A DNA stretch of 64,000 nucleotides from Polytrichum commune. Its lineage: Eukaryota; Streptophyta; Polytrichopsida; Polytrichales; Polytrichaceae. The stretch spans positions 24,758,527 through 24,822,526 of the forward strand of contig OX485808.1 in the NCBI GenBank assembly GCA_950295325.1. Reading direction: 5' to 3'. The number at the start of each line of letters is the position of its first letter. The first letter of the stretch is position 1. Below are positions 1 to 59,100 of the stretch, piece by piece. The position numbers and the translations under genes are program-made. A model generated the notes under the pieces. The model saw only the letters and a program-made list of their open reading frames with translations. It was not told the DNA's origin and made no database searches.

Positions 1-2992
1 AGAGACAAGAGAAGACTCAATCAGCACATTAAGCTTGTATTGGATGTCACATATGACAATTGAAGTAAAACTGAGATATTGATTTGTGTCACGTCGTATA
101 GGGTGGGCAGATTTTGTTATTATTTGGGCCATATTAGAAAAATTTGAAATTAGGGCGGGCTCGAGTTTCTAATTGGGCGGGGGGAATGAAGATTCGAAAT
201 GACGGTCGGATGGGAAGACCTGAAGGGGCGGCCTCTCGATACACTTTAGGGTGTTGGGTCCAGTTTCTGGCTCAATAGTATTTGGCACCATATTCGAAGT
301 TTCTGAAATCAAGTGTAGACTTGCAATCTGGTGGGAATAGGAATCATAATTAAAATTTCTGAAATCAGGTGTAGACTAGGAATCAGGTGGGAAGAGTTCG
401 GTACCATATTCGAACTTTCGGAGAACAGGTGTAGACTCGGAATCTGGTGTGGAGTGTTGGGGACCATATTCGAAGTTTCTGAAAACAGGTGTAGACTCGG
501 ATTCTGGTGGGAAGTGTTCGGGAGCATATTTGAAGTTTCTGGAATCAGGTGTAGACAAGGAATCTGGTGGGAAGCAAAACCCAAAACCATATTTGAAGTT
601 TCAAAAATCAGGTGTTGACTTGGAATCAGGTGATATTTCAGATTTCATGTGTAGATTTGGGTTTGATATTAATGTGAAATGGGGCACCCTCTCGGAACCG
701 AGAGGGTGGGCTAGATGGCCATTATGTGAGATTTCATATTTCAGGTTTAGATTTGGGTTTGATATATATCTGAAATGGGCACCCTCTCGGAACCGAGAGG
801 GTGGGCTAGGTGGCCATTTTTAACAAATATGAAATTAGTTGTGGGCTCGAGTTTCTGAATTGAAAGTGTTTTGAACATATTTGATTTCAGATTTCAGGTT
901 TAGCTTTGGGTTTGATATATATCTGAAATGGGGCACCCTCTCGGAACCGAGAGGGTAGGCTAGGTGGCCAAATAGTGTAGTTTCTGAAATCAGGTGTAGG
1001 CGATTGTGTGGATTTTGGTTTGACATTAGTGTGAAATGGGCACCCTCTCGGAACCGAGAGGGTGGCCAGGGTGGCCAATTATGATAAATCTGAAATCAGG
1101 TGTGGGCTCGAGTTTTTGAATTCAAAGTATTTTGAACATATTTGATTATCTGAAATGAGGTTTAGGGTCGGTATTTGGTTATATATGTGGGACCATATTT
1201 GATGATTTAAACATTTAGTGTGGTTATGAATTTCAATATGCTTGAGTGTGGCACCCTCTCGGTTCCGAGAGGGTGGGCACGGTGGCCAGATTTTGAAGTT
1301 TCTGAAATCAAGTTGAGAGTGATATTTCAGGTTTCACAATGTTCCGGGCCATATTTCTCAATTTCTGAAATCATGTGTAAGGGTACTATTCAGCTTAGAA
1401 GATTTCGGGGCCATAATTTAAGTTTCTGAAATCAAGTGTAGGCGATGAAGTGTGCATTCGATTTTGATTTTAGTGTGAAATTGGGCACCCTCTCTGCAAT
1501 CAAGCGTAGGTTCGAATGTGAGTTTTGTATCAAAATGGGGCACCCTCTCGGAACCGAGAGGGTGGGGTGGGTGGCCAATTTGTCAGGATTCGGAATTCAG
1601 ATGTAGATTGTGGTTTGATAAATATCTGAAATGGGGCACCTTCTCGGAACCGAGAGGGTGGGCTAGGTGGCCAATTATGATAAATCTGAAATCAGGTGCA
1701 GTCGACTTAGTGTGGATTCTTGTTTGACATTAGTGTGAAATGGGCACCCTCTCGGAACCGAGAGGGTGGGCTAGGTGGCCATTATTTGAGATTTGAGATT
1801 TCAGGTTTAGATTTTGGTTTGATATATATCTGAAATGGGGCACCCTCTCGGAACCGAGAGGGTAGGCTAGGTGGCCAAATAGTGTAGTTTCTGAAATCAG
1901 GTGTAGGCGATTGTGTGGATTTTGGTTTGACATTAGTGTGAAATGGGGCACCCTCTCGGAACCGAGAGGGTGGGCTAGGTGGCCAAGTAGTGTAGTTTCT
2001 GAAATCAGGTGTAGATTTTGGTTTGATATATATCTGAAATGGGGCACCCTCTTGGAACCGAGAGGGTAGGCTAGGTGGCCAAATAGTGTAGTTTCTGAAA
2101 TAAGGTGTAGGCGATTGTGTGGATTTTGGTTTGACATTAGTGTGAAATGGGCACCCTCTCGAAACCGAGAGGGTGGGCTAGGTGGCCATTATTTGAGATT
2201 TCAAATTTCAAGTGTCGAGTTTGGTTTGATATATATCTGAAATGGGCACCCTCTCGGAACCGAGAGGGTGGGCAGGTTGGCCAATTATGATAAATCTGAA
2301 ATCAGGTGTGGGCTCGAGTTTCTGAATTGAAAGTGTTTTGAACATATTTGATTGTCTGAAATGAGGTTTAGGGTCAGTATTTGGTTATATATGTGGGGCT
2401 ATATTTGAGGATTTAAACATTTATTGTACTTATGAATTTCAATATGTTTGAGTGTGGGACCCTCTGGGTTCCGAGAGGGCGGGCACGGTGGCCAATTGTG
2501 ATAAATCTGAAATCAGGTGTAGGCGATTTAGTGTGGAGTCTTGTTTGACATTAGTGTGAAATGGGCACCCTCTCGGAACCGAGAGGGTGGGCTAGGTGGC
2601 CAAATAGTGTAGTTTCTGAAATCAGGTGTAGGCGATTGTGTGGATTTTGGTTTGACATTAGTGTGAAATGAGCACCCTCTCGGAACCGAGAGGGTGGGCA
2701 GGGTGGCCATTTATGATAATTGAGATCTCAGGTGTAGTTTCGAATTTCAGTTTTGTATCAAAATGGGGTACCCTCTGGTACCCGAGAGGGTGGGCTATGT
2801 GGGCATAATTTGAGACTTCACATCAGGTGTACATTCGGGTTTTACATAAATTTGAAATGGGGCACCCTCTCGGTTCCGAGAGGGTGGACAGGGTGGCCAT
2901 TTTCTGGATTGAGGTGATTCGTTGTGTTAAGATGTGTTGTATGTATGCAGGCATGACAATCACTAGATCTCACTGCATCTCGGAGGGACTCA
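1..2992. repeat. Irregular short-repeat array with palindromic core
   Basis: The stretch upstream of the ParB/methyltransferase gene is built from variants of two motifs. One is TTTCTGAAATCAGGTGTAG, spaced roughly 60-100 bp apart. The other is a core with 10-bp arms ACCCTCTCGG and CCGAGAGGGT separated by AA (sometimes TT), usually followed by GGGCTAGGTGGCCA. Clear core copies begin near 686, 781, 935, 1042, 1253, 1542, 1638, 1746, 1842, 1950, 2046, 2153, 2248, 2567, 2674 and 2864. The same repeats fill two introns of the gene downstream. I see no coding capacity; the open frames here arise because repeat units keep frame. Confidence 0.85.
290..660. repeat. 60-bp tandem minisatellite, about six units
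   Basis: Six diverged units follow each other at a period close to 60 bp, with TTTCTGAAATCAGGTGTAG-like boxes near 300, 357, 415, 475, 535 and 599. Most units carry a GGAATCTGGTGGGAA-like box. Because 60 is a multiple of three, frames stay open on both strands and give spurious 20-residue repeats. Confidence 0.8.
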
Positions 2993-5900
2993 ATGGAGGA
3001 CCAGGAAGTTCAATTGGTGCCTCCTGTGGTGATTGCTGCGGCTCTTGATGATCTCTCACAGGAAGAGGTGATTCATTCTTGTAACTTTTGTTGTTAATGT
3101 TTTGATTGTTTGGTTGGTTCTGGGGTTAACTTCTTATTCTTGGATTGACTTGTTCTCTAGGTTGATGTACCGGTTGTTTCAGACTGCCTACGTCCACTAG
3201 CAGAGTCAAATCCAGAGGAGACTGAGCTCTTGATTCGAAGATCACAGAAGGAAGACTCGAACTCCGTGATTCACCGGGTTCGATTCAAACCTATTGTGAA
3301 GTCACGATTTTCTATTCCATTGTGTCGCCTGCGATCTCTTCCTCTTGTTCGTCCCATCAACGACGTTGATGTCGCACGTTTAGAAAACGAATTTGTTATG
3401 GGATATCGTGATGGTGATCGAGCTATGTACGTCTCCGTATACAACAATCTCGATGAAGTCCTTCACGTCTCCGATGACATCAAGGCCACTTGGAGTCCAT
3501 TATGGGTGGAGGCCAATTCAGAATTTGATGCCATCCTCGAAAGAGACTCAGACCTTGCTCATTTTGTGGGCAAAATGTTCTTCGTGTGGGAGGGGAACCA
3601 TCGTTTGACAGCTTGGTGGAGGCACATCAACAAGCATCACCCGTTGGACAAAGAATGGCATATCTCTGCTGACTGTATTGTCGTGGATCCAAGAAACTGC
3701 ACCGCCGTTTTTCTGAATGCTATGAATGACATAAACTGGTGAGTTTGGCATTTTATATTCATGTGTTTGTATTTATTTCGTTAGTGTTTTCCTCGTACAT
3801 TTTTTTCGTTGTAGGTCCACGGAGCATGACCATGTTAAGGACAACCTCCTAGCAAAGTTACTTCGCATTCGGACGTTTGGAAAGATGAAGCTGGAAGAAT
3901 TTAAAGACCTCCTCTCCATCGCAGACTACAAGATGTGCGAGTCCAAGATGGAAAAGACTCCTACTTGGTATCCCCTTACGATAAACGTCTTCGTCAAATT
4001 CTTATACAAGGTATTTTTCTCTTTATTCCCCTCAAATGTTCATGTCTTCTGGTCATGCCGGTTCCTAATTTTTTTATGTTTATTTTAGAGGGAGATATCC
4101 AACGCTGCGGATAACGCGGCAAGGTTGTACCGTGAGGCCACTCCAGAGGCTCTTATAACTTCTCCAGAAATATGGGAAACTATGACAAAGGCCCAGGATA
4201 GGTTGATCAAAAGCATTCGCACCAGGAATTTTGAGAAATTCATTTCCGTCGCCCACAAGGACAACGGTGATGATTTCTTCCATGAGGTGAACATTTCTCT
4301 CTTCGCCATGATTTTGGCCATATTTGATTTTTCATTTAATATGTACTCGGAACCGAGAGGGTGGGCTACATGGCCTAGCGAGAGCATTTGGGTTTGATAT
4401 ATATCTGAAATGGGCACCCTCTCGGAACCGAGAGGGTGGGCTAGGTGGCCATTTTTAACAAATCTGAAATCATGTGTGGGCACGACTTTCTGAATTGACA
4501 GTATTTGGAACATATTTGATTGTCTGAAATGAGGTGTAGGGTCGGTATTTGGTTATATATGTGGGGCCATATTTGAGGATTTAAGCATGTAGTGTGATTA
4601 TGAATTTCAATATGTTTGAGTGTGGCACCCTCTCGGAGTGTTCGGGGCCATAATTTGAGATCTTGAAATCAGGTGTAGGCGAATTAGTGTGGATTTTGGT
4701 TTGATATATATCTGAAATGGGGCACCCTCTCGGAACCGAGAGGGTAGGCTAGGTGGCCAAATAGTGTAGTTTTTGAAATCAGGTGTAGGCGATTGTGTGG
4801 ATTTTGGTTTGACATTAGTGTGAAATGGGGCACCCGAGAGGGTGGGCTAGGTGGCCAAATAGTGTAGTTTCTGAAATCAGGTGTAGGCGAGTGTGTGGAT
4901 TTTGGTTTGACATTAGTGTGAAATGGGCACCGTCTCGGAACCGAGAGGGTGGGCTAGGTGCCCATTATTTGAGATTTCAAATTTCAGGTTTAGATTTTGG
5001 TTTGATATATATTTGAAATGGGGCACCCTCTCGGAACCGAGAGGGGAGGCTAGGTGGCCAAATAGTGTAGTTTCTGAAATCAGGTGTAGGCGATTGTGTG
5101 GATTTTGGTTTGACATTAGTGTGAAATGGGGCACCCGAGAGGGTGGGCTAGGTGGCCAAATAGTGTAGTTTCTGAAATCAGGTGTAGGCGAGTGTGTGGA
5201 TTTTGGTTTGACATTAGTGTGAAATGGGCACCGTCTCGGAACCGAGAGGGTGGGCTAGGTGCCCATTATTTGAGATTTCAAATTTCAAGTTTAGATTTTG
5301 GTTTGATATATATTTGAAATGGGGCACCCTCTCGGAACCGAGAGGGGAGGCTAGGTGGCCAAATAGTGTAGTTTCTGAAATCAGGTGTAGGCGATTGTGT
5401 GGATTTTGGTTTGACATTAGTGTGAAATGGGCACCCTCTCGGTGCCGAGAGGGTGGGCTAGGTGGCCATTTTTGACAAATCTGAAATCATGTGTGGGCTC
5501 GAGTTTCTGAATTGAAAGTATTTGGAACATATTAGATTGTCTAAAATGAGGTGTAGGGTCGGTATTTGGTTATATATGTGGGGCCATATTGGAGGATTTA
5601 AACATTTAGTGTGGTTATGAATTTCAATATGTTTGAGTGTGGCACCGTCTCGGTTCCGAGAGGGTGGGCACGGTGGCCAGATTTTGAAGTTTCTGAAATC
5701 AAGTTTTGAGTGGTGTTTCTGTTTTTACAGTGTTCGGGGCCATATTTGACATTTTCTTGAATCAACTCTAGAGTCTAATTTCAATTTATAAATATTTGGG
5801 GCCCTAATTTTGAGTTTCTCAAATCGGGTGTAGGTGATTAAGTGTGGTTTCGAGTTTGACATTACTGTGAAATGGGGCACCCTCTCGGAACTGAGAGGGT

Positions 5901-8900
5901 GGGCTACATGGCCATTATGTGAGATTTCAGATTTCAGGTCTAGATTTGGGTTTGATATATATATGAAATGGGCACCCTCTCGGAACCGAGAGGGTGGGCT
6001 GGGCTAGGTGGCCGTTTTTGACAAATCTGAAATCATGTGTGGGCTCGAGTTTCTGAATTGAAAGTAATTTGTACATATTTGATTTTCTGAAATGAAGTGT
6101 AGGGTCGGGTTTCTCGTTTTCATGTTGTCTGGGCCATGTTCTGAGTTTCTGAAATGAAGTGTTGGGACGGTGTTTGGTTATAAATGTGAGGCCATATTTG
6201 ATGAGCTTAGAATGTAGTCTAGTTTTGAGTTTCAATATGTATCAAGGGGGGCACCCTCTCAGTTCCAAGAGGGGGGGCATTGTGGCCATATTTTGAAATT
6301 TTTGAAATTAGGTTTCGAGTGTGTTTCTGGTTTTACAGTGTTCGGGCCTATATTTGATATTTTCTGAAATCAAGTGTAGAGTCTGTTTTGGGGCCATGTT
6401 TTGAGTTTCTGAAATCGGGTATAGGGTCGGTGTTTGGTTATAAGTGTAGGGGCCATATTTGTATGCAAGTGTTCGGGGCTAGATTAGGAGATTTCTGAAA
6501 TAAGGTGTAAGTCGGTAACATGGTTGACTTAATTCTTCTTAACAAATCACTCTTATATGTTGCAGATTGACCGTCATTTTTCCACCTTCCTCGTCACAGA
6601 TATGACAATAGAGAAACTCCAGAAGGTGGCCATCACACATGTGGATGCTCATTATAAGGCCAAGTGGCTTCGGTGGTGGAATTCCACTCCCGACATCAAA
6701 GAGAATAACAAATTTCCCTCGTCTCTCCCTCTTCGGGAGAAAGTCCTCGAAAACTGGCTCAACAAAGCTTCTTTTTGGGCTCAAGTGCATCTACAACTTT
6801 TTTCCATCTATTTGTTCATTTCTCTACTTTACATTTCTAACCATTTTTCTTTCTTGTTATAGTTGGAGAAGGGGGTTGAGGTTGAAATTGCTTCATTTGA
6901 GAATGAGTGTTCCGCTGAAATTGACTGGGGTTCCACGGAGGATATTTTGCAACCGGCGAATTATGTTGAGCATTGGAGGCTGATTTTGTGGGACAAGGCA
7001 TTTCTGGTTTATTTTGACGACAAGGGAGACCTCAAATTTGTCAAAGGCCTTGATCTCATGGAATTTGATGAAGGCCCCATATCAATCAAACGCGTCGCTT
7101 ATCGGTAATATTTTGAGTTTTCATTTAGTCCGTTTTGTTCTCATTTCATTTCCTTTCCGCCACCTTTTTAGTTTCTGATTTTCTTTATTTTCCAGGTTCA
7201 TTCACCGTGAGCTCGTTGTGAAGAATGCCCTGCCTTCTTCCTGCTTGCCAACTTTCCTTGTAGATTGGGTGGATGTCAACTCCATTCTTTGTGTGTATAC
7301 GGCCATTCAAGTTGCAAAGTTTCCGGAGTCTCACTTGCAGGCTGGGGGATGGTACTTGGATTGTTCTGGAGGATTTGTGCCTGCGGAAGAGAAGAGTCTT
7401 TTTGCTAGCATTGTGAGTACTGCTCCCGAGCTGAGCATTATTCCCTTTGAGGAGCCCGACATCGTTGAGAATCCTCCTCCTCCGCCCAAGGCACCAAAAA
7501 GAAAGGGCAGACCAAAGAATACCGCCACTCAAGTAACTTCACAACTTGTCACTCGGTCTGCTTCAAAGACCCCCATTCAGCCATCCACCTTCATACGGAG
7601 TCCATCTATGACTCCTTCTGTTGTTCCATCAGCTGCCCCCTCTGGCACTCCCTCAGCCTTTCGTCCACAAACTGTTGCTACTCCTTTTCACAGTGACACT
7701 TCTCTTCTCTCCTTGCCTCGCAAAAGGAAGGCCGCCCTTTTGGATACGAGTGCCACCTCTTCGGGTTCCCCTAACACTCTTTCTCTCATCGAAAATGTGG
7801 ACATGGTGCAACTCATGCTGGATTCAGAGGTTGCAGGAGGTCCCCTCCCAGCATATACCCGCATCCAGGAGTTCATTGCCAAGGTTTGTATATTTCCTTT
7901 CGTCATTTTTCAAACTCCTCTTTTGGTTTGGTTCTTATTTTCTTTCGTCTTATTCTCTCATGAGATTTTAATTGCAGGTTGGGGTAGGTCGTTCCCGTGT
8001 GAACACCTCGACTACAACTCACAAGGGCCTCGATTTGCTCTTCGCAGACGTTCCCGAGAATTTGCCGGTGCCCAACATCTCCACCGATGTTCCTGCTTGG
8101 AACAAGCTCCATGAATCATACTATGAGTGTCTTTTTGCATTTGCGAAATCTAACCTCTATGATCATGGTGTCTTTGTGCTAGTGCCTCTGTTTCCATAAC
8201 TGTTTTTGATTGGGCATACACTTACGATTTCTACATCGCTGAAGATTGGTTTGGGATGAATGATTTGGACCTTCAATCCCCTGTGGTCCCCTCTGGAATG
8301 GTAAGCAACTCCAAAAACTACAATATTTGGACCATATTTGTAATTCTTAATTCAGGTGTAGTGTTGTCTTCTTAGTTTACAATTTATCGGGGCCATATTA
8401 GAGGATTCTGAAATCAGGTGTAGATTCGGCTTTCAAGTTTATAGGTGTTTTTCAAGTTCATAAATTTCGAGGGGCCATACTAGAGGATTCTAAAATCACG
8501 TGTGCATTCGGCTTTCAAGTACATGAATTTCGAGGGGCCATATTTGAAGTTTTCTGAAATCAGGTGTAGTGTCGGCTTTCTAGTTTACAAGTGTTCGGGG
8601 CCATATTTGATTTTTTCTGAAATCAAGTGTAGAGTCTGGTTTCTGTTTCGGGTGTACGGTCGGTGTTTGGTTATACGTGGGGGGGCCATATTTGAAGATT
8701 CTATAATCTAGTATAGTATTGAGTTTCGTCTCGGAACCGAGAGGTTGGGCACTGTGGCCAAACTTTGAAGTTTCTGAAATCAAGTTTAGAGTGATGTTTC
8801 TGGTTTTACATTGTTCGGTGCCATATTAAAAAAAATTGAAATCAGGTGTACTGTCGGCTTTGTAGTTTACAAGTGGTCGGGGCCATATTTTAATTTTCTG

Positions 8901-11591
8901 AAATCAGGTATAGACTAGGCTTTGAAGTTCATAAATGTTTTTCAAATTTCATAAATTTTCAAGGGCCTTATTACGGGATTCTGAAATCAGGTGTAGATTC
9001 GGATTATTAGTTTACAAGTGTTCGGGGCCATATTAGATGATTCTGAAATCAGGTGTACATTAGGCTTAGAAGTTCATAAGGTTTTTTCAAATTTCATAAA
9101 TTGTTAGGGGCCTTATTTCAAGTGTTCGGGGCCATATTGGATATTTTCTGAAATCAAGTGTAGAGTCTGGTTTTTGGTTATACGTGGGAGGGCCATATTT
9201 GGAGATTCCAAAATGTTGTGTATATTTGAGTTTCAATATGTATATTAGTGTGAAATGGGCACCCTCTCGGAACCGAGAGGGTGGGCTAGATGGCCAATTA
9301 TGATAAATCTGAAATCAGGTGTGGGCTCGAGTTTCTGAATTGAAAGTATTTTGAACAGATTTGATTGTCTGAAATGAGGTGTAGGGTTGGTATTTGGTTA
9401 TATATGTGGGGCCATATTTGAAGATTTAAACATTTAGTGTGGTTATGAATTTCAATATGTTTGAGTGTGGCACCCTTTCGGAACCGAGAGGGTGGGCACG
9501 GTGGCCAGATTTTGAAGTTTCTGAAATCAAGTTTAGAGTGATGTTTCTGGTTTTACAATGTTCGGGGCCATATTAAAATTTTCTGAAATCAGGTGGTGTC
9601 GGCTTTGTAGCTTACAAGTGTTCGGGGCCATATTTTAATTTTCTGAAATCAAGTATAGACTAGGCTTTGAAGTTCATAAATGTTTTTCAAATTTCATAAA
9701 TTTTTAGGGGCCTTATTACGGGATTCTGAAATCAGGTGTGGATTCGGATTTTTTTGTTTAAAAGTGTTCGGGGCCATATTAGATGATTCTGAAATCAAGT
9801 GTATACTAGGATTTGAAGTTTTTCCAAATTTCATAAATTTTTAGGGGCCATATTAGGGTGGGTTAGGTGGCCAATTTGTGAGGTTTCAGATTTGAGGTGT
9901 AGATTTGGGTTTGATATATATCTGAAATGGTGCACCCTCTCGGAACCAAGATTTCACAGTGGGCACAGTGGCCATATAGTGAAGTTTCTGAAATAAGGCT
10001 GAGTAGTGTAGAGTCGGATTTATAGTTTACAAGTGTTTGGGGCCATATTAGATGATTATGAAATCAAGTGTAGATTTGAAGTTCATAAATGTTTTTCATA
10101 ATTTCATAAATTGTTAGGGGCCATATTAGAGGATTCTGGAATCAGGTGTAGACTATGCTTTGAAGTTCATAAAGTTTTTTCAAATTTCATAAATTGTTAG
10201 GGGCCTTATTAGGGGATTCTGAAATCAAGTGTAGATTCGGATTTTTAGTTTACAAGTGTTCGGGGCCATAATAGATGATTATGAAATCAGGTATAGACTA
10301 GGCTTTTAAGTTCATAAATATTTTTCAAATTGCATAAATTTTCAGGGGCCATATTAGAGGATTCTGAAATCAGGTATACATTCGGCTTTCAAGTACATGA
10401 ATTTCCAGGGGCCATAATCGAGGTTTTCTGAAATCAGGTGTAGCATCGGCTTTTTAGTTTACAAGTTCTCGGGCCCATATTTGAAGTTTCTGAAATCAGG
10501 TGTGAGGGGGTCACCCTCTCGGTTGGGTCTAACATCAGGTGTAGGGTCTACGAGGCCATTTTTGAGACATCTGAAATCAGGTGTACATTCGAGTTTCTGA
10601 TTTGAAAGTATCATTTAACATATTTGATTATCTGAAATGAAGTGTACAGTGTGTTTTTCAGTTTATATGGTTTCGGGGCCATGTTTTGAATTTCTGAAAT
10701 AAGGTGTAGGGTCTTCTGAAATTGTTTTGAGTTTTTCAGACTCGGAAATTCAACATCAAGGTTCTTGTTCGTGCTAACTCCATTTTCAAAGTGCGTGAGG
10801 AGGCTATGCAAGAGTATGGTTACAACCTCCAGCGTGATGGATGGTTGAATGCTTTCACTGATGAGAAGAGCCAGGCGATGTGCAGTGATGGGGTACCTTG
10901 GCGAGGTGCTCGAGAAAAGCATCATGTTTTCTTCTCTATCCTCCTCGCTACTCTCACCGACAAGAATGATGTTATTATGGACTGGCAGTGTGGTGTAGGT
11001 ACGCATTATCTTTCAGCATCATCCTTACTTTGAATTTTCCGTTATTTTTTCTTCATTACTTTCATACTAACATTTTCCTTTTTTTTTTAGGTGGTTCGAT
11101 TACAGCATGTCGCTCATTTGAGCGGCATATTGTGGTGCTTGAGAGTGACCCCGTTATTTTCAATGCAATCCTTCTCCCCATGCGCGATTCCCAACCTTCG
11201 CGTACTCCCCGCTCAGTTGCCCCACCGTCTACCTCTATTTTTGATCCGCCTCAGAATTTGACCAAACGGGCATTTGGTTTTCTTTGTGCGTAAGTTTGCT
11301 TTATATGTTTTGTCATGTTTACCTTCATGTCATTTTCCCATCTTCATGTGTCTTCTCGTTTCTAATCTACTTGCTTGGGGGTTCAGAGTGCCAGGGGAGA
11401 ACGCAGTCCTTCGTCAAGGCATGTGTTCGAGTCCTTCCAAGACGTTCGAGCTCCCTCCGTATGCTGCTGAGCTTGCCAATGTTTTAGCGAAAGCTCTGTC
11501 TCCACCTCCTAGTTGCATCCGACCATTCAACAAGCTAGTATTGGATTTCCTAGATATAGAGGCCGAGGAGGGCGAAGATAGTGATAGATGA
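2993..11591 (+). CDS. ParB-like domain / beta-class DNA methyltransferase fusion, 11 exons, one frameshift
   Basis: Reconstructed exons are 2993-3067, 3161-3738, 3815-4010, 4089-4286, 6566-6784, 6863-7104, 7196-7883, 7978-8300, 10740-10998, 11091-11289 and 11387-11591. All junctions are GT-AG and phases agree, giving about 1,060 residues. Residues ~75-215 resemble a ParB/Srx-type domain: PLVRPIND is followed by the signature WEGNHRLTAWW (~168-178). An AT-hook-like KRKGRPKN lies near 604. The C-terminal half has beta-class methyltransferase motifs in permuted order: a motif IV-like LLFADVPEN (~752), DHGVFVL, then PWRGAREKHH, and motif I DWQCGVGGSITAC with a downstream ESD. Beta-class enzymes transfer a methyl group from SAM to N6-adenine or N4-cytosine in DNA. 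Motif IV reads DVPE instead of DPPY, so activity is doubtful. A one-base loss near 8160-8196 breaks exon 8; the coding total is one base short of a multiple of three. The family assignment is inference from motifs. Confidence 0.72.
4287..6565. repeat. Intron 4 of the ParB/methyltransferase gene, filled with the palindromic repeat
   Basis: This 2.28-kb intron opens GTGAAC and ends TTGCAG. From about 4340 it is almost wholly made of the short repeats that form the upstream array. Palindromic cores begin near 4416, 4724, 4929, 5025, 5433 and 5974, with degenerate copies near 4346, 5646, 5879 and 6252. Two cores (near 4831 and 5131) have lost their left half and read CACCCGAGAGGGT. No gene is seen inside. 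Confidence 0.85.
4785..5386. repeat. Recent 301-bp tandem duplication inside intron 4
   Basis: The block beginning GTGTAGGCGATTGTGTGG near 4785 is repeated 301 bp later, near 5086, almost without change. One difference is ATTTCAGGTTT against ATTTCAAGTTT. A third partial start follows near 5387. The copies are far more alike than other units of the array, so this is a recent duplication of a multi-unit block. Confidence 0.85.
8301..10739. repeat. Intron 8 of the ParB/methyltransferase gene, filled with short repeats
   Basis: This 2.44-kb intron (GTAAGC to TTTCAG) consists mainly of the ATTCTGAAATCAGGTGTAG unit with GGGGCCATATTAGA and GTTCATAAATTTT spacers, at periods of roughly 60-110 bp. Palindromic cores are rarer than in intron 4; clear ones lie near 9260 and 9471, with degenerate ones near 8730, 9932 and 10510. 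The same family thus exists with and without the palindrome. No coding sequence is seen. Confidence 0.85.
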
Positions 11592-12003
11592 TAGTTTGGA
11601 AACTCTATTTTATATGTATTGGTTTTTTTTATATATTTCCTAGGTTCATTTGTTGAATTTCCATGTGCATTTTGCAAATTCCCATTCATCTCCTTCTATA
11701 TGTTTTATTGATGTTTGATTTCAATTGGTGACGTCAGCCCTAATTTAATATGAAAGTATTTGAAACCTATACTATAAGATGTTTGATAATAATTGCAATC
11801 TTCCACGCCTATAGGATCCGTTGGTTTCTCGAACACTTTTAGGTTATTATGTCCATGGGAATGGGATGCCTTTCCAACAAATTGTATTCAAACTATCTCT
11901 AATTCCACGGAAATAGGCACTGTTTTTTCTAAAATTACCCAACAAATTCTAAATTTTCTGCTCCCCAATCTCCGCTATCCGCTCTCTGCTCTCCGTTCTA
12001 CGC

Positions 12004-12477
12004 TCACACTACTAAGTTTCCCGATCCATCTTCCCTTGTATGGTCAACATGGTAGTAGGTAACTTCAACTATATCTGAAAACAAAAGAAGTTGTTTGATG
12101 GAAAACTTAGCAATGCATCCACATTTTTTTGAGTGAGGATGTTGAGGATCTCCCGTGTGATCTTTCGGTTCAAATGCACATTGATAGTGAACATGCTCAA
12201 TGTATGAATCAATTTGAGGTCTTCCCACTGGTATTCCACGAACCCTGGCAGCAACAATCCATTCAACAGTAGAGCCATCTGCACATGTCTGGCCAGCTAT
12301 GAAGTCTTCAATTCTATCCAAAGGAAGATATGCCGCCATGATGGTTAACGTCTTGCCAAATCTTTTCCTTGTCTTTGCTGTCCATTGAATATCTTGAAAA
12401 GATATTGGCCCTAGTTTGGGTTGTTGTGCAGTGATAGAAGGTTTCGGCTTCCTTGGCATATTGGCCCCTACATACAA
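12004..12477 (-). CDS. Unrecognised ORF fragment with possible zinc-binding Cys/His pattern
   Basis: A 157-codon frame starts at MYVGANMPRKPKPS. The region just before MPRK looks like a splice acceptor (TTGTATGTAG), so the true exon may begin near 12467. I do not recognise the family. The C-terminal half carries YQCAFEPKDHTGDPQHPHSKKCGC followed by YYHVDH. That spacing of cysteines and histidines recalls WRKY/GCM/FLYWCH-type zinc-binding folds found in transposon-derived proteins, but this is only a resemblance. It lies alone in repeat-rich DNA, so a mobile-element origin is likely. Codon content is protein-like, unlike the surrounding AT-rich sequence. Confidence 0.4.
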   Translation of the reverse strand: MYVGANMPRKPKPSITAQQPKLGPISFQDIQWTAKTRKRFGKTLTIMAAYLPLDRIEDFIAGQTCADGSTVEWIVAARVRGIPVGRPQIDSYIEHVHYQCAFEPKDHTGDPQHPHSKKCGCIAKFSIKQLLLFSDIVEVTYYHVDHTREDGSGNLVV

Positions 12478-12639
12478 TAAAATAATTACGTAAGCCTAAA
12501 CCCATCACGCATGAATATACAAATAAAGATATATCTTGTGTAAGTAAAGAATGAAAATCCCGCAAAATAATAAAATGACAAGTTTAAGACCCATCCCTAC
12601 GTAATTTTGAATTCATAATGGATTGAATTGTATGAAGTG

Positions 12640-13075
12640 GGAATTGTATCACTGTTTGGTATGCGATGGGTATTGTATATTTGATTTATTTTCTCAAATT
12701 AGATTCAATACCCATCACGCACCGAAATGATACATCATAAATTTTGGTTGGTGCAATATCCATCACGAACCAGGGAGGATTTGGAATTGTATCACTGTCA
12801 AACCAAAGAAAAAAATGGAATTGTATCACTGTTTGGTATGTGATGGGTATTGTATATTTGATTTATTTTCTCAAATTAGATTCAATACCCATCACGCACC
12901 GAAATGATACATCATAAATTTTGGTTGGTGCAATATCCATCACGAACCAAGGAAGAATTGGAATTGTATCACTGTTAAACCAAGGAAAAAATGGAATTGT
13001 ATCACTGTTTGGTTTGCGATGGGTATTGCTATCTGACTTATTTTCTCGAATTAGTTGCAATACCCATCACGCACC
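12640..13075. repeat. About 2.5 tandem copies of a ~175-bp unit with an internal inverted repeat
   Basis: GGAATTGTATCACTGTTTGG recurs near 12642, 12820 and 12992. Each unit contains GCGATGGGTATTG (with variants) followed about 30 bp later by its complement CAATACCCATCACGC, so each can fold into a hairpin. A further ACCCATCACGC lies near 12503. The copies are diverged, so the array is not recent. Confidence 0.75.
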
Positions 13076-17217: not shown

Positions 17218-17357
17218 ATGCCTTGAATTTTGCCTTGCGCATGAATTTTGCAGCGTCGTAACTTACATTGGATCTCTCTCTCGAGCTTTCTCTCCTGCTT
17301 TCAATACTCTCGCTTGAGAGTTTTTCCTTGCGTTCCATGGTAGCCTACAGGCTTTGA
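17218..17357 (+). promoter_or_regulatory. Three minimal upstream ORFs in the SPB1 leader
   Basis: Three very short ATG-to-stop frames precede the SPB1 start: 17218-17226 (two codons), 17241-17261 (six codons) and 17337-17357 (six codons). If the transcript starts near the telo-box, all three would lie in the 5' leader and could lower or regulate translation. Transcript start is inferred. Confidence 0.45.
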
Positions 17358-17385
17358 GAGCGCTTCATTTTGCGAAGCATTCACC

Positions 17386-20300
17386 ATGGGGAAGAGCAAG
17401 ACCACAGGAAAGGGAAGGCTCGACCGCTTCTACTACCTCGCGAAGGAGCAGGGGTTTCGGTCTCGAGCAGCATTCAAGTTGGTGCAGCTTGACCGGAAAT
17501 TCCAGTTTCTAAACTCGGCTAGGTCGGTTCTGGATCTTTGTGCAGCTCCAGGAGGATGGATGCAAGTGGCTGCGAAGAACATGCCCGTGGGGAGTCTGAT
17601 CATCGGTATTGACTTGGTGCCTATCCGGCCAATTCGAGGAGCAGTAACATTGCAAGAGGATATTACAACTCCACAGTGCAGGGCAGCCATTAAGAAGGTG
17701 TTGAAGGAACGGCACCATGATATGGTCCAAGTTGTGCTCCATGATGGGTCACCGAATGTTGGAGGAGCGTGGGCTTCGGAGTCATCTGCACAGACTGCGT
17801 TGGTTTTGGATTCCCTCAGGCTGGCTACTGATGTCTTGGCACCTGGAGGCACATTTGTTACTAAGGTGCCAATTTTGAATGCATTTTATCTATCAATTCA
17901 CCATCTGCATAGTAGTTGTTCAATTTTTTTTGAGCACCATTCTTTTGTCAGAGACTGGTTATGAAAAAACATGGGCTGGGAATCGATCTTCGTGTAAGAG
18001 GATGCTTGAGAGTCGGGGTTGGGGTTTAGGGTTATGTGGGGAATTAAGGGAGCAGTAGGGGGCATTGGGAGTATTTGATTTTGTTGGTGAATGTGTGAAT
18101 ATGTATTCTTTTTGTTCAGGTTTTCAGGTCACAGGATTACAATGCTCTCCTCTTTGCCTTCAAGCAGGTATTACCCTACTCATTGACATGCCTCCCATCT
18201 TGCTTATGGATGTAAGAATTCAATAGATTTAGACTATGAGCATTGGTGTAAGGTTTTGTGTGATTCATGATTGTGATCCTTTAATAGGTGCTGAGATTCT
18301 GAAACACCAAATTTCACTGCGTGTGGAGCTATCACGTCTGTAGTGTTCCAGATGTGTATATATTTTTGGTTTAAATTCTGAGTGTAATTTGTATCTATCC
18401 CTTCTTTTTTTTGAAATTTGAAGTACTACATGAGGTGTGTAAAACACTATAGTTGACAACTGAGCCTGCTGGCTGGTCCTTTGTTGTGGACTTGTTGAGC
18501 AGATTTTTTTGTTTTAAGGCTTATACTGGAGAGGCTTCAATTGAAGTAAGTTAATTTGTTTGTCTGGCAGCTGTTTGAGAAAGTGGAGGTCACCAAGCCT
18601 GTTGCTAGTCGAGCAACATCAGCAGAAATCTACGTAATATGTCTTAAATACCGAGCACCAGCCAAAATTGACCCACGGCTTCTTGATGCTAAACATTTAT
18701 TCAAAGCTCCTGAAGAGGCCGCAAAGGTGTGCATCCAATCTTTGTCATAGCTTGATACAGGCTTAAAAAACTGATGTACTGGGATTGAGGATTGACATGA
18801 TTGAGTCCCACCTAATTGCTGGTGATTATAAATTGCAGCTTGTTGTCCAAGTCCTTAGCTCTTGATTCATAGTTGTTTTTTGTAGGTCATAGGGTAGGTA
18901 TGTACCACTTTGTTAGGGAGGCATTGTGACCTTGTTACTGTTCTTGCTATACTAGCTTAAATAAGTATTGCTCGGAAAATGTGTAATTGGATAAAGTACA
19001 GGTATCTGAACATCTAGTTGGAGGTTTTAAAATCTAGTTCATCTGTCCTCGATGTAGGTAATTGATGTCCTCAAGGCAAGCAAGCAAAAGCGACACCGTG
19101 AAGGGTAAGTCTTCTCAGAATCTACTACTTAACTAGTAAATGATCATCCTTCCATGTTGCTGTGGCACATTACTCATTTCTGGAATTAGTTTGAGTTTGT
19201 CACTCATTGGAGCCTAACTGGAGAAGCATGCACATTTTCAGTTGTCAGCATTTGAATGGGGAATCCTGAGCATTTCTTACCTAGAACATGCTAATCTCCT
19301 ATTTGAATTTGACTGTGAATAAGTAGGGTTGGTAGTTTAACAGTATGAAGTGTTGATTACAGATATGACGAGGGTACCACAGTTTTGCGCAAGGAGGTCA
19401 AAGCGTCAGAGTTTGTGTGGTCTGAGAAACCTCTGGATATGCTGGGCTCCATCACTTCAATTAGTTTCAAGGACCCTGATAGTAAGGAGATCAAAGACCA
19501 TGTTTTGACGACAGAAGAGGTAGAGCTTTCTCAATACCATAGGCTATACAAATTAACAGACATGTTCTTAGACTTTTTTTCACTTCTAAATTTCATAAAT
19601 GTTTTTAGTTTGTGGTATATTAACATGGCAGACATAGGTAATGAGTTCTAATATGTGAAGAGAATAGAGAACTAAGAAGCTAAGATCATATGTGAGTATA
19701 TCAAGTATTGCAGTTCTGATCTCTTTATCTGTGGAGCAGATTAAAATTCTGGGCGAGGATCTTCGGGTGTTAGGGAAGACTGAGTTCAAGCAGCTGCTCA
19801 AGTAGCTTGTTGCACCTACACCTGAGTTTTTTTATGCATCATTGTGGATATCCATCAAATTGATGTTTGTGTTTCTAATTACTTCATTCTTGTTATAGGC
19901 ATGGGTTAGAATATGTCATTTTTTTTTGTTGATTTGGTTTTGTTGGGGTTGGAAGCTTCAGCAAGTTCTAATACTTCTAGCTGGGTATAGGTGGCGCTTG
20001 CAAGTGCGCAAGGCCTTGGAGTCTGCTACAGAGAAGACAAAAGAAGAGGATGTTGTTGATAAGAAAGGTAAAAATGATGATGACGAGGAGGAAGAGTTGG
20101 CCACACTGGAAGAGCTTAAGGAATATGCAGAAGAAAAAAGACAGAAGGAGCGGAAAAAGAAGGCAAAAGCACGAGAGAAGGTGATGTTTTGGTCTAGTTT
20201 TTGGCCTTACCAGTTAAATTAAAGAATATTGTCAAATCTCTACGGATGGAGGAATTGAGGTGTATTACAAAACTCAATGAGTACAGGATATCATCCACGT

Positions 20301-40696: not shown

Positions 40697-41994
40697 ATGG
40701 AAGAATGGAGGGCTAGGTTGGCGGGTGCCCAGGTAATGTTCAGGGAAGATGAAGAAGACAATAAGTTGGAGATGTAGATGGCTCTTGATCAGCTGCAGTC
40801 CTTCATTGATTTGGAACCGGCACCGAAGAGACAGGCCGGTGGTTCGATTTCAGGGAAGTCTCCCAACATTGAGAGGGCTAGGATAGCTATGGATAACCAG
40901 ATGTATCTTGATTATTTCGCTGATCCGCCTATATGGGGACCTAGTTTTTTCCGACGCCGGTATCGTATGAGGAGAAGCTTGTTTAATACGATTTTGGAGA
41001 AGGTGTGTGCCCGCGGTAGTTACTTCGTACAAGGGAGGGATGCTTGTGGTTTGATAGGCTTGAGTTCCCGGCAGAAAATCACGGCCGCCCTTCGCATGCT
41101 CTCGCTCGGTGTATGCGCATATGCCATGGATGACTACTGTCGGACTAGCGAGTCCACTGCAATGGAGTGCATGAAGCGGTTTTATGTTGTGGTCCGGGCA
41201 GAGTTTGGAGACCATCACATGAGACAGCCTACGCGGGCCGACTTTGAGCAGCAGCTATCGATTAATGCACAACGCGGATTCCCTGGTATGTTTGCATCGT
41301 TGGATTGTATGCATTATCAGTGGAAAAATTGTCCAGTGGCATGGCAAGGCAATTTTGGAGATAGGGACGGCAAGAGCTCCATCATTCTAGAAGCCATTGC
41401 AGATCAAAGCTTACACATATGACATTTTTTTTTGGAATCCCCGGCTCGAATAATGATGTCAATGTACTTGATCGGTCGCCATTGATTCACAATATGCTAA
41501 CTAGTGAGGCATCCGACATGACTTTTGAGGTGAATGGGCAGGAATACAAACGGTATTATTTATTGGCAGATGGTATTTATCTACAATGGAGTTGCTTTGT
41601 TCAAAGTATTCACATGCCCGAAGATGAGAAGAGGAAGCATTTTGCATCACGACAAGAAGCTTGCCGCAATGACGTAGAGCGGTGCTTCGGAGTGTTACAA
41701 GCCCGCTTTGCAATCATCCGCAACCCGTGCCGGCAATGGAGTATGGAAACAATTGCGGACATCATGTTTGCTTGTTGTATTCTCCATAACATGATTTTAG
41801 TTGATGAGCATAACGTCCCGGGGTTAGAGAACATTCTTGCAGGTGAATTTGGTGGCAATGTACCATTGCGTAGAGGCTTGTCTTTTCAGGAGTTAGTAAC
41901 ACATACAATTGAGATTGAGAACAAAGACACACACTACGGTCTGAGTGGTGATTTCATTGAACACTTATGGGCATTGAAAGGCACTAGGGCCTGA
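40697..41994 (+). pseudogene. PIF/Harbinger DDE transposase, broken by a stop and a frameshift
   Basis: One long frame (40778-41422) and a second (41419-41994) together make a nearly complete Harbinger transposase (DDE_Tnp_4 type). Visible features are FFRRRYRMRRSLF, LSSRQKITAALRML, the first Asp in FASLDCMHYQWKNCP, then FFFGIPGSNNDVNVLDRSPL, YYLLADGIYL with the second Asp, and ARRDVERCFGVLQ-like RNDVERCFGVLQARF with the Glu. A loss of one base near 41419 separates the halves. The likely start ATG at 40697 is cut off by TAG at 40775. Both lesions would have to be real to call it dead; a sequencing error could explain one. The catalytic residues themselves remain. Confidence 0.88.
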
Positions 41995-42878: not shown

Positions 42879-43943
42879 CTACACCTCGCCCGAATTCCCT
42901 CTGAGAACTTGTCCTTCAGGGTGATGGTGTTCATCACCCACCTGGTCTTCGGCATCTCCATCGCGCTGGGAGTGCAGCCCATCCCCTTCGGCGCCAGGTG
43001 ACCAGGCTCCAGGCGAGCTCGTAGCAGCAACAACAACATTGGCAGCAGCGGCTTTCGCATCGCAGTCCTCTTCCTCAGCTAGAAGCTTGCGGAGCTTCCT
43101 CAACTCCATCTGTCTTTGGAGGCGCATGTATTCTTTGGCGTCCGAATCAACATCTGGCATCGACATCAGCATGAGGAGGTTTTGATCCTCCAGCAACGCA
43201 ACCTTCCGCATGTGTGCCGCAGCCATGCTCTTGGTGGCCTCGGCGTGTGCGAACAGAAGACCCTCACGGATCTTGCCTTGGTGTTGATCCTCCTTCGCGA
43301 GCTTGGCGCCTCCCGGGCGCCCCTTGAAAATCCACGTTGCCTCTGCAGCCACACTCCCTCCCTTCGCTGATCCGCCCCCTCCCTCCGAACCCACCCCTTC
43401 GCCCTGCTCCATCTCGCTCAAATCCACACAGTCGGATTCCTCTTCGCTGCTCGGCGCCTTCCTCTTTGGTGTCACAACCTTCACCTGTGTCCAGCCCTCT
43501 GCCCACTTCGCGTTGTCTTTCAGTAATACCCAGCAGTGTTCGAATGCGAAATCCGACCCCTTCTCATTCTTCTGTTTGTATAGATCATGCGCCTTCGTCA
43601 ATGTATCTGTAGCGCTCGTCCCACTTCGATTCAACCGCATCACCTGTGAGTAGACACCAATGAACTTGGAGACGTCATGTTTGATGGTGCCCCACTTGGT
43701 CTCCAATGAGCGTTGCGGCTGGGGTCCCTGTGGCTGATTCTCTTGGTAGTGAGTGGTAATCCGATCCCAAAAAACACATGCTCTTTGTTGATTACCAACA
43801 ATGCGATCTTGTGTCACATGCAACACACTTCTACAAAGCTGTTCCTCCTCATCCTTGCAAAAAATCTTGCCTTTGACACTAGGTCGCATAGGCCCTCCTT
43901 CCTCCGCCACCCTGGGCGCAGGCTTCTTCCTCCCTACCACCAT
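42879..43943 (-). CDS. Harbinger second gene: Myb/SANT-like, NAM-associated C-terminal type, intact
   Basis: An uninterrupted 354-codon frame is convergent with the transposase. Residues ~22-110 (FCKDEEEQLCRSVLHVTQD ... GTIKHDVSKFIGVYSQVMRL) match the trihelix/SANT domain of Harbinger ORF1 proteins. The rest fits the NAM-associated C-terminal type: FEHCWVLLKDNAKW, an acidic linker, and a basic coiled region MRLQRQMELRKLRKLLAEEE. Such proteins bind the transposon ends and bring the transposase into the nucleus. GC content is far higher than in the flanking DNA. The ATG at 43943 gives a natural start. Since this gene is intact while its partner is not, it could still serve other copies. Confidence 0.85.
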   Translation of the reverse strand: MVVGRKKPAPRVAEEGGPMRPSVKGKIFCKDEEEQLCRSVLHVTQDRIVGNQQRACVFWDRITTHYQENQPQGPQPQRSLETKWGTIKHDVSKFIGVYSQVMRLNRSGTSATDTLTKAHDLYKQKNEKGSDFAFEHCWVLLKDNAKWAEGWTQVKVVTPKRKAPSSEEESDCVDLSEMEQGEGVGSEGGGGSAKGGSVAAEATWIFKGRPGGAKLAKEDQHQGKIREGLLFAHAEATKSMAAAHMRKVALLEDQNLLMLMSMPDVDSDAKEYMRLQRQMELRKLRKLLAEEEDCDAKAAAANVVVAATSSPGAWSPGAEGDGLHSQRDGDAEDQVGDEHHHPEGQVLRGNSGEV

Positions 43944-44147
43944 TGGTCCAAGCAGATAGGATTCCCGGAATCTCGGGAGTTTGGAGTGAAGAAGTACTCA
44001 CTAGAAGGTAGTGGGCAAGGGGGTGAGTTTGGCGTGAACGGGTAGAGTTTGCCCATTGCCGCATCACCGGTGGTTGTCTACGCGGCCCATTCTTCCCGTT
44101 GTGGACCGTTGGCGCACCCGTTGGCGCCAACGGTGGAGATGCTCTTA

Positions 44148-56150: not shown

Positions 56151-59100
56151 ATGAATCCTGGTGGACTTGGCCAACGCGCGGTGTTCGTTTGCAACCATGA
56201 GGCGAAGAACATTTACACCAATGCAGCTTACCAGAGCATGACTGGGACTACCCCAGAGGAGCTTCTTGGCCTCGGATGGATCTCCTTTGTCCACCCAGAT
56301 GACTTGCCCGTAAGTCCAAGAGATTCAAGTGTTCTTCATGGTCGCAATTCTGTCCATGTGCGCATTCAGAGAATCACAGACTCGCTCTAAGTATCCCTAA
56401 CATTTCAAAGGTGTGAAACCCTGGGGGATCGTAAATCCTTCACAATCTCTTCACAGTGGCCCTAAGGTCAATCACCATCTCTGACCCAATATTTAGGATT
56501 AGTGGTAGATGCACCACTCTCACCAGTGGTACTATCTACATTAGTTCCAGATACTGGACAGAGGTGAAGACCTTCAGGGCCATTGTAATATTGTTCCTGT
56601 GCAGATCCAGAGAACTACAGACTCGCTCTAAATACTCCTTAGAATCTTGAAAGTGAGAAACCCTGGGGATCGGAGGTCCTTCACAATTTCACCACAGGGG
56701 CTTAAGGTCAATCACCACCTCTGTCCCAATATGTAGGCTCCTAGTAGATGTACCAACGCCATCACTGGTGCCATCTAAACCTGTGCTAGGTACTGGACAG
56801 TGGTGATGAACCTCAGGGACGTCGTATCTATACAACCTGTTGTAGATATCACGGAATTGCATGGGGAGTTTGATTAGTTTGTATTCTGGGGGCGGTGCAG
56901 AGCGTGTGGGCACTTGCTTTCGGGCATTTTTCATCTGCCGGTGATGCCGAGAGGCAGATTCAATGCGAGTACCGCCTGCTGAACAAGAAAAAGAAGGGGT
57001 CTTACACGTGGGTCAATGTCCAGTCTGTGGACATGTCTGGTTGCCCTGGAATTGGAAGGTAACTTGGCTGCCACCAACATCCCCACCCTCCCCAATAATC
57101 TCAATGTCGAATTGGATATTTGTAATTGATTTTCACATATATAATTGGCATATATCTGAAACTAATTTTGGGGAAATCGAAATTTTCTTCCAGTTTTGTG
57201 GGTATATTGGAAGACATATCCTGGCGCAAACAAGCGGAGGACTCATTACAGCGCAGCGAGGAGCGGTATGTTCTAGCTGTGAAGGGCTCCAACGATGGGC
57301 TATGGGACTATGATATGACGGCCAAGAAGGTCTTCTACTCGCCTCGGTACAAGCACATGTTGAGACTGGATTTGACCGAAATTGACGATTCGTTCGATGT
57401 CTTCGAATCTCGTCTTCATCCCAGCCACAAAGGTCGGTCGATCAGATTCTTCATTGTGTCTCCCTTATCCTTTCCATTAGTATTCTGTTAACCAATATCA
57501 GTATTTGTTAACCACGAGGGCTCTGAAGTTCTATCCCCTTTCTCCAGCATCTACCCATTTCCTAAGATATTGGGGGTAGAGGCGATGAACTTTTGAGATG
57601 TGGGACTGGGATACGGTGAACAACAAGGTCTTTTTACTCGCATCGGTGCAAGCACATTGAGACTGGGATCGACTGAAATTGACCTTAGTGTAGAAAATGT
57701 CTTCGAATCTCGTGCTCATACCCAATTACTAAGCTCGTTACATCTTTGTGTCTCCTTTTTTCCTATCATTGCTATCAGGCTGACATTACTAATGCCATAT
57801 GGAACTCGACAACCACAAGGGCCCTCAAGTCCATCACCTCTGTCCAGCATCTACCTCCATCCTAGGTATTGGGGCAGAGGCAATGTGCTTTAGCGCCCCT
57901 GTGAACTCATCCGTCTTTTGCAATCCACCGTTTTTTTTGCATCTGGGTACTGTTTTTTTGTCAAGAGAGAGATGATTTGGCATGAACATATACTCTAATT
58001 CCTTAGATTTTGAAAAAGTCAGCATGTACTCTTATTCAAGATATTGGGGCATAGGCAGTGAGCTTTAGCGCCCTTGTGAGCTCATATGTCTTTTGCAATT
58101 CACCGTTTTGCATCCCATCTGGTCAATGTTTCTTGTCAAGAGAGAGACATATATTAGAATTCCTCAAATTTGAAAAACTCAGTCCGCGTGAGTGTTTGGC
58201 CGTGCAGATGGAGTACTAGAAAAATTGAGGGAGTACTTGTCTGCCCCCAGTGCTGACCCTTGCTCCCCACCCTTCGATATTGAGACGCTACTCCAGGCTG
58301 GGGATGGTGAGTATCTCTGGTTTCGGGTTCGTGGTCAAGCTCTTTGGAACAAGGAGGGCATACCCACCAGAATGGCCGGCTCCATCACTGACATCACGGA
58401 GCGCAGGAAATGGGAAGAGGAGCAATCCCGCCTCATTGCAAATCTTGACATTGCACGCGACAAAGCGGAGAAAGCCGCCAAAGCACGATCCGAGTTCCTT
58501 GCCGTGAGTATATTCATTCAGTGTTCATTCAAGTCGAGCTCCTTTCGTGTGGGTCGAGTCAATCCGATGAAGGCCCCTTGGAAGTTCCACATCACCTCTG
58601 TCCCCATATCTAGAGAAAATGGTAGATGTGCCCCCTTTCACTTAGTGGTACCATCTACACCCTTCATAGATACCGGACAGAGGTGACGGGCTTTGGGCTT
58701 GTAATTCCACAACGTGGCTGTTAAATTAGTACCCAATTGTGTGTCCGAACGAATGATTAGGGGGCCCAAGAGTTGTAGATTTGATAAGACATTGAAGCAC
58801 AAGGCCAGGCTCAACTTCATCCACCTTTCTCCAGTATCTAGGAAAAAGGTAATTTATACCACCGGTGAAAGTGATGCATATACTACACTGATTCATCCCA
58901 ATTAGTGTGGGTTACTATTTGGAGTTACGCAGTGCTATAACTATTTGACGAGAATGTAACGTTTTACATTTTACCAAGCAAAGTTATTTCTGTTTTATGA
59001 TTCTAGCCAAGTTGTCACTTTCTTACACTTTGAGAGTGGTCCACCTCCTCGAGCTTGTTATTAGTCATAACCGGTTTAAAGCTCGTGGCCAAAATTTGAT

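Follow-up and report, generated by a model that had tools for sequence, protein, structure and literature searches.

A spliced gene with a predicted ParB-type fold and a methyltransferase-like domain in a 17.4-kb mobile element of Polytrichum commune: a candidate self-recognition protein

Introduction

The locus described here raises the question of what a protein combining a ParB-like and a methyltransferase-like domain is doing in an intron-rich moss gene: whether it belongs to the host, was acquired from phages or bacteria, or is carried by a mobile element, and on which DNA it would act. The analyzed stretch, referred to below as the window, comprises 64,000 nucleotides of Polytrichum commune (contig OX485808.1, positions 24,758,527 to 24,822,526, forward strand); negative coordinates lie to the left of its first letter. 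A preliminary description of positions 2993-11591 had proposed a single protein of ~1,060 residues with a ParB-like domain and a beta-class DNA methyltransferase, an old transfer from phages or bacteria, and a possibly domesticated or mobile gene family that modifies DNA. Fusions of ParB to N6_N4 methyltransferases have been reported from phages and prophages (PMC12704722); in the main text of that study the words plant, alga, moss and transpos- do not occur. A full-text literature search, which most subscription journals lie outside, yielded, among the papers listed, nothing apt on a ParB-like, methyltransferase-bearing eukaryotic transposon.

Results

Gene structure and lesions of the window copy

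The gene was found to start upstream of the window, in an open frame running from -358, of which the 3' end of the first exon (1-28; this and all following exons are on the + strand), K/R-rich and then acidic, lies within the window. An upstream intron (287-2899) contains degenerate tandem arrays, detected by TRF, with the palindrome ACCCTCTCGGWWCCGAGAGGGT. The second exon was placed at 2951-3067; both earlier models, that of the preliminary description and our first, 12-exon one, began at ATG 2993 inside it. The ParB-like half includes exon e2 (3161-3738), encoding the ParB-CTPase-fold domain with GNHR, a GxxR P-motif, and exons e3 (3815-4010), e4 (4089-4286) and e5 (6566-6784), each with GT-AG borders and paralogue matches, and has its 3' limit at e6 (6863-7104). 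The intron between e4 and e5 (4287-6565) carries palindrome arrays with 11 core sites. Exon e7 (7196-7883) encodes a linker, P/S/T-rich and with KRKGRPK, in which constraint is weaker. The methyltransferase-like half is encoded by e8 (7978-8300), with the motif IV-like LDLLFADVPEN and the segment after it, by e9 (10740-10998), with VPWRGxREK (motif X-like) and the start of motif I, DWQCGV, by e10 (11091-11289), with GGSITACR and beyond (motif I-III region), and by the last exon, which includes the stop codon (11387-11591); related repeats with 4 core palindromes occupy the intron 8301-10739. GT-AG borders were present on the exons of the preliminary description, and the matches in paralogues mostly spanned them from border to border, the first and last exons being matched only in part. 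Both WEGNHRLTAWW and DWQCGVGGSITAC, the motifs named in the preliminary description, were confirmed in the exons.

Comparison with other copies revealed a 13-nt deletion in exon 8 of the window copy relative to 13 distinct copies (an alignment of 15 rows, two of them duplicates). This deletion refutes the 12-exon model, whose 56-nt "intron" at 8127-8182 is an artefact. A protein of 1,041 aa built from that model, in which some of exon 8 and the actual 5' coding sequence are consequently missing, had served as the query in the first Pfam, homology and assembly searches. Two further lesions affect the 5' part of the window copy: the first-exon donor at position 28 is TT instead of the GT found in copy C2, and a TGA is present at 2954-2956. 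The paralogue search showed that in relatives the ParB-like and methyltransferase-like exons form one collinear unit. The window copy itself does not encode one intact protein. As to coordinates, the gene starts upstream of the window, and the mobile unit runs from -5406 to 12022.

The gene lies within a mobile unit

The unit measures 17,429 bp and is flanked by a 10-bp target-site duplication, GATCCATCTT, present at -5416 to -5407 on the left and at 12023-12032 on the right; the left end was located by matching the duplicated target. Deletion of the unit together with one duplicate restores a frame of 175 aa, i.e., the empty site. Alignment with two other copies placed a right end common to all three at about 12023-12025. 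The 3' end segment (11592-12022) carries AGCGGA-like hexamers and terminates in ...AAGTTTCCC. Similarity between the ends is loose, being degenerate, gapped and made up of AGCGGA-like hexamers; its score of 70 was the best among the upstream positions scanned, the next being 57. No exact short terminal repeat was found at the element ends, and the exact terminal repeats CGGGAAAC near the element were absent from copies A and B. Mutator-like (MULE) elements generate target-site duplications of 9-11 bp, a length that the duplication observed here fits. The upstream part of the element holds a long open region on the minus strand, part of which recurs in copies C2 and C3 (78-79% identical at the DNA level), and in which CxxH and a SWIM-like CxC..CxH were recognized by eye. 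Three translated pieces of this region matched no Pfam transposase family, so that the element is called Mutator-like here on the basis of the length of its target site and of these motifs.

The joined-protein query gave at least 196 exon matches in the 408-Mb assembly (seven contigs of 42-78 Mb), this being a lower bound because 44 of the 3,723 first-look candidates were scored; the matches listed are on C1-C7.

Several other features were recorded around the element. The element has inserted into a coding frame (12004-12495, minus strand) that continues to the left of -5416 and ends in ...DHTREDGSPAHGLEDKLSIGRKSAY; this frame is perhaps another mobile-element gene, in which case the insertion would be nested. 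A 177-bp tandem repeat (2.5 copies, 93% matches) lies just outside the element at 12640-13075. A transposase (Plant_tran, DDE_Tnp_4), which we take to be of the PIF/Harbinger-type superfamily, stands beside a minus-strand NAM-associated ORF (40778-41994 and 42879-43997), and at 58192-62669 there are parts of a histidine kinase gene with introns, recognized by PAS, HisKA and a weak HATPase_c. To the left of copy B, an ORF (L029 and L030, oriented position 765-1622) is presumably DUF4218/CACTA-transposase-like.

Selection on the protein

Nei-Gojobori dN/dS between subfamilies was calculated for e2, e4-e7 and e9. The values were 0.07-0.26 in e2, 0.08-0.13 in e4, 0.05-0.16 in e5 and 0.10-0.22 in e9, with weaker constraint in e6 (0.13-0.50) and in the linker e7 (0.25-0.59). 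These ranges leave out copy B in exon 5 (dN 0.42-0.45, frame break), L020 in exon 6 (dS saturated) and L022 in exon 9 (dN 0.15-0.25, misframed). Near-identical pairs mostly gave 0.4-1.2, several being at or close to 0 or undefined because of few changes. One copy, L007, has a stop in exon 9; copy B, though without a stop by count, is not intact, given its frame break in exon 5. Among the F-like copies, C3_36.43 and C5_34.99 have e2-e5 open, and three G-type copies, C5_43.36, C3_40.83 and S3, are free of stop codons in nine exons, as judged by stops and not by small indels. Judged by these substitution ratios, the protein has evolved under constraint between subfamilies, and the overall pattern is that expected if a transposon gene is functional at the time of movement and degenerates once the element has inserted.

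The ParB-like half

The N-terminal domain has, according to structure prediction, a ParB-CTPase fold. The predicted model reached a pLDDT of 83.1, and the 14 best rows of the structure comparison were all ParB, Noc, KorB or PadC; a first prediction, from 8 rows, had a pLDDT of 39 and was discarded. Among 65 members, the residues of GNHR were conserved in 64 (G), 64 (N), 65 (H) and 59 (R); the GxxR P-motif is used here as PMC12704722 defines it. Sequence profiles did not recover the relationship: the ParB family was absent from both the Pfam (E up to 1) and the NCBIfam matches of the 65 members, one of which matched DUF6551 at E 0.19 in Pfam, and the ParB half had no PDB profile match. The ParB-like domain of the preliminary description is thereby upheld by fold and GxxR motif, but not by profiles.

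An origin by transfer from phages or bacteria was not borne out, as pattern-based scans of viral and prokaryotic contigs (viral only for the methyltransferase profile) revealed no relative. The exon-2 profile had 442 matches in contigs, the best 120 of which were listed. When the full-length 1,041-aa protein, from the flawed model, was used as the query, none of the 7,998 candidates scored reached E 0.001, and a profile-profile comparison of 25 ParB-methyltransferases with the family of the element was not significant for either half. ParB matches elsewhere in the assembly were rejected as nuclear: contigs C12 (L001) and C23 (L002, L003) resemble bacterial or phage DNA in being densely packed with open frames. 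L001 encodes a ParB-N6_N4 methyltransferase with DPPY intact; in profile comparisons, the relatives of this protein did not match the nuclear family significantly.

The methyltransferase-like half

Weak but consistent profile hits indicate that the C-terminal domain resembles beta-type N6/N4 methyltransferases. PF01555 matched four of seven members (best E 0.019, no cut-off being stated). DpnA, a solved adenine methyltransferase, was matched at E 0.79 with one sequence and at 0.031 and 0.0032 with profiles, and the DNA cytosine-N4 methyltransferase 8s9m at 0.69 with a profile. The beta-type catalytic motif is (D/N/S)(P/I)P(Y/F/W), for example DPPY. In all 12 rows compared, including the L014 query, motif IV reads [DN]-[IVM]-P-[EK] and this catalytic pattern is absent, the aromatic residue of DPPY being missing; motif I and its surroundings are conserved. 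Following the order of the motifs, the motif IV-like segment, which the preliminary description had recognized, was placed at LDLLFAD[VI]PEN and not at the DWAY/DWAH of the same exon. The catalytic tetrad is degenerate, and the modification of DNA suggested in the preliminary description is hypothetical; instead of being catalytic, this half may serve to bind SAM or DNA. Elsewhere in the window, an FtsJ-like methyltransferase exon was recognized at 17344-17964 (E 2.3e-37).

Palindromes in introns and upstream region

The introns and upstream region of the element contain tandem arrays with a 22-nt palindrome, ACCCTCTCGG-WW-CCGAGAGGGT, amounting to 26 cores (CTCGGNNCCGAG) and 18 full sites. Cores were absent from 83,234 bases of non-element DNA, taken from both sides of the window element and from the left side of C2, C3 and B, as well as from 3,219 bases of exons. 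The termini carry different repeats, the hexamers described above. In a screen of 20 copies (a set that did not include L007, L013-L017, L019, L020 and L023), 19 had at least 3 core sites, the number varying from 3 to 54 in the stretches read. Nine copies were of this F type, among them S2 with only 3, degenerate, sites; ten carried a second (G) type, GAGGCCTCGG-AT-CCGAGGCCTC, the left arm of which is mostly GAGCC in S1. Copy C7_13.56 has an F-like ParB half, yet no array in 3.5 kb upstream.

Within each type the palindrome, 20-22 nt long, persists across classes of repeat unit, five array classes in the F type and several unit classes in the G type. Spacer similarity between F-type classes was 0.41-0.50, compared with about 0.40 for shuffled sequences (60 random pairs each); two pairs of classes are still slightly alike (0.50). 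At the level of sequence, these comparisons show that subfamily-specific palindromes outlive their spacers. A further palindrome, C(C/T)CACGGGNNAACNCCCGTG(A/G)G, occurs 1-4 times per G-type copy (L039-L042 and L044-L047, among the top 8 palindromes listed), in two of these copies within a 70-bp repeat.

Mosaic copies

Exon-by-exon identities, measured to the window copy and for e8 to L014, reveal a switch in the character of the family at the e6/e7 junction. Two mosaics, S2 and C4_44.82, combine an F-like ParB half (74-81%) with a distant methyltransferase half (48-60%, e7-e9), and C4_44.82 has F-type palindromes in 5 of 5 sites. Ten copies have the reverse arrangement, a distant ParB half (48-71%) and an F-like methyltransferase half (72-89%), and G-type palindromes. 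From these copies, the palindrome type follows the ParB half; the informative mosaics are two, of which S2 has only its few degenerate sites. Since the sites lie mostly on the ParB side of the e6/e7 breakpoint, linkage by itself may be enough to keep palindrome type and ParB half together. On the methyltransferase side there is only the intron 8301-10739, and 3 of its 4 cores in the window copy have ACCCT. Unrooted trees of both halves require one change of palindrome label each and so do not separate the hypotheses; in these trees C7_13.56 was labelled F-type despite its array-less upstream region, and A was absent from the ParB tree.

Discussion

Palindromic intron sites together with a ParB-like protein suggest a self-recognition system. 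In the explanation that we favor, the spliced gene joining a bacterial-type ParB fold and a methyltransferase-like domain is carried by a DNA transposon of 17.4 kb as an accessory gene; the probability of roughly 0.4 that we give to this explanation also covers palindrome binding, self-marking and an effect on silencing. The ParB-like half would bind the palindromes of its own element, as ParB binds the palindromic parS; such binding would mark the element's own copies; and the protein at marked copies could counter host silencing, or recruit or block methylation. A more specific form, possible but on balance unlikely, is a parS/ParB-like system of the element's own, in which the ParB-fold protein would load at subfamily-specific intron palindromes, perhaps with nucleotide, and spread over the element, the degenerate methyltransferase-like domain acting as the effector through which DNA methylation by the host is blocked or redirected; palindromes and protein would co-evolve and be swapped as modules.

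The palindromes may, however, be unrelated to the protein and serve transposition, replication or splicing, or amplify themselves. Their freely varying number, the instability to which palindromes can be subject and the linkage to the ParB half all agree with this alternative, which we hold to be doubtful, as the palindrome is kept while spacers diverge almost to shuffled similarity and the sites occupy introns and the 5' region while other hexamers mark the termini. It is improbable that the protein is an active writer, its ParB half loading at the palindromes and its methyltransferase half depositing 6mA or 4mC on the element: the missing aromatic residue of motif IV in 12 rows argues against it, in spite of the conserved motif I and surroundings and the profile matches to DpnA (E 0.0032) and 8s9m. 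A precedent for such a captured amino-methyltransferase is the bdelloid N4CMT, a bacterial-type N6_N4 enzyme in a eukaryotic gene, the mark of which sits, according to PMC8885841, at transposons and certain tandem repeats; N4CMT is a host gene fused to a chromodomain, whereas the present gene is carried by a transposon and has a ParB fold as its fusion partner. That the locus is a plain host gene or a domesticated copy is very improbable. Spliceosomal introns and constraint between subfamilies would agree with it, but the target-site duplication, the restored empty site, the high copy number and the lesions already contradict it for the window copy. Of the two fates initially suggested for the gene family, domestication thereby loses its support, and mobility is strongly supported by the duplication, the empty site and the dispersed family.

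The transposon-borne self-recognition that we favor would follow the logic of VANC of Arabidopsis VANDAL transposons, by way of a different protein. DUF1985, presumably the VANC domain, had no Pfam match up to E 10 in the whole protein, in a scan that used the flawed model and also missed the ParB fold. The layout is closely similar to that of VANDAL21, where VANC21, as described in PMC5735166 and PMC10398659, binds arrays of a short motif in introns and upstream regions and induces loss of silencing marks. In both systems a transposon encodes an accessory protein, its introns and upstream regions contain tandem arrays of short motifs that are specific to the subfamily, and these arrays evolve fast and together. 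They differ in that the VANC21 motif is a 9-nt non-palindrome, YAGTATTAY, whereas the window element has palindromes; in that VANC21 binding has been demonstrated, whereas the sites reported here are putative; and in the protein, here a ParB fold with a methyltransferase-like domain. With the CTP-dependent clamps ParB, Noc and KorB the protein shares the ParB-CTPase fold, the GxxR motif and palindromic, here putative, DNA sites; unlike theirs, its sequence profiles do not match, and no HTH (outside e3-e6) or dimerisation domain was assigned. As in the phage fusions (PMC12704722) and in proteins combining ParB with PF01555, the ParB-CTPase fold is N-terminal to an N6/N4 methyltransferase-type domain. 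The present protein differs from phage-type ParB-methyltransferases in its size (~1,040 aa), its intron-rich gene, its location in a eukaryotic transposon and its degenerate DPPY, and its family has no significant profile-profile match to them.

If the ParB half does read the palindromes, a eukaryotic transposon would have arrived independently at sequence-specific targeting of itself, by means of a fold that serves chromosome partitioning in bacteria. A ParB-CTPase fold would also be placed, together with a methyltransferase-like domain, in a mobile element of a eukaryote. Polytrichum commune would then offer a clean test system, its genome containing palindromes of two types, ParB halves of two types and mosaics that arose naturally.
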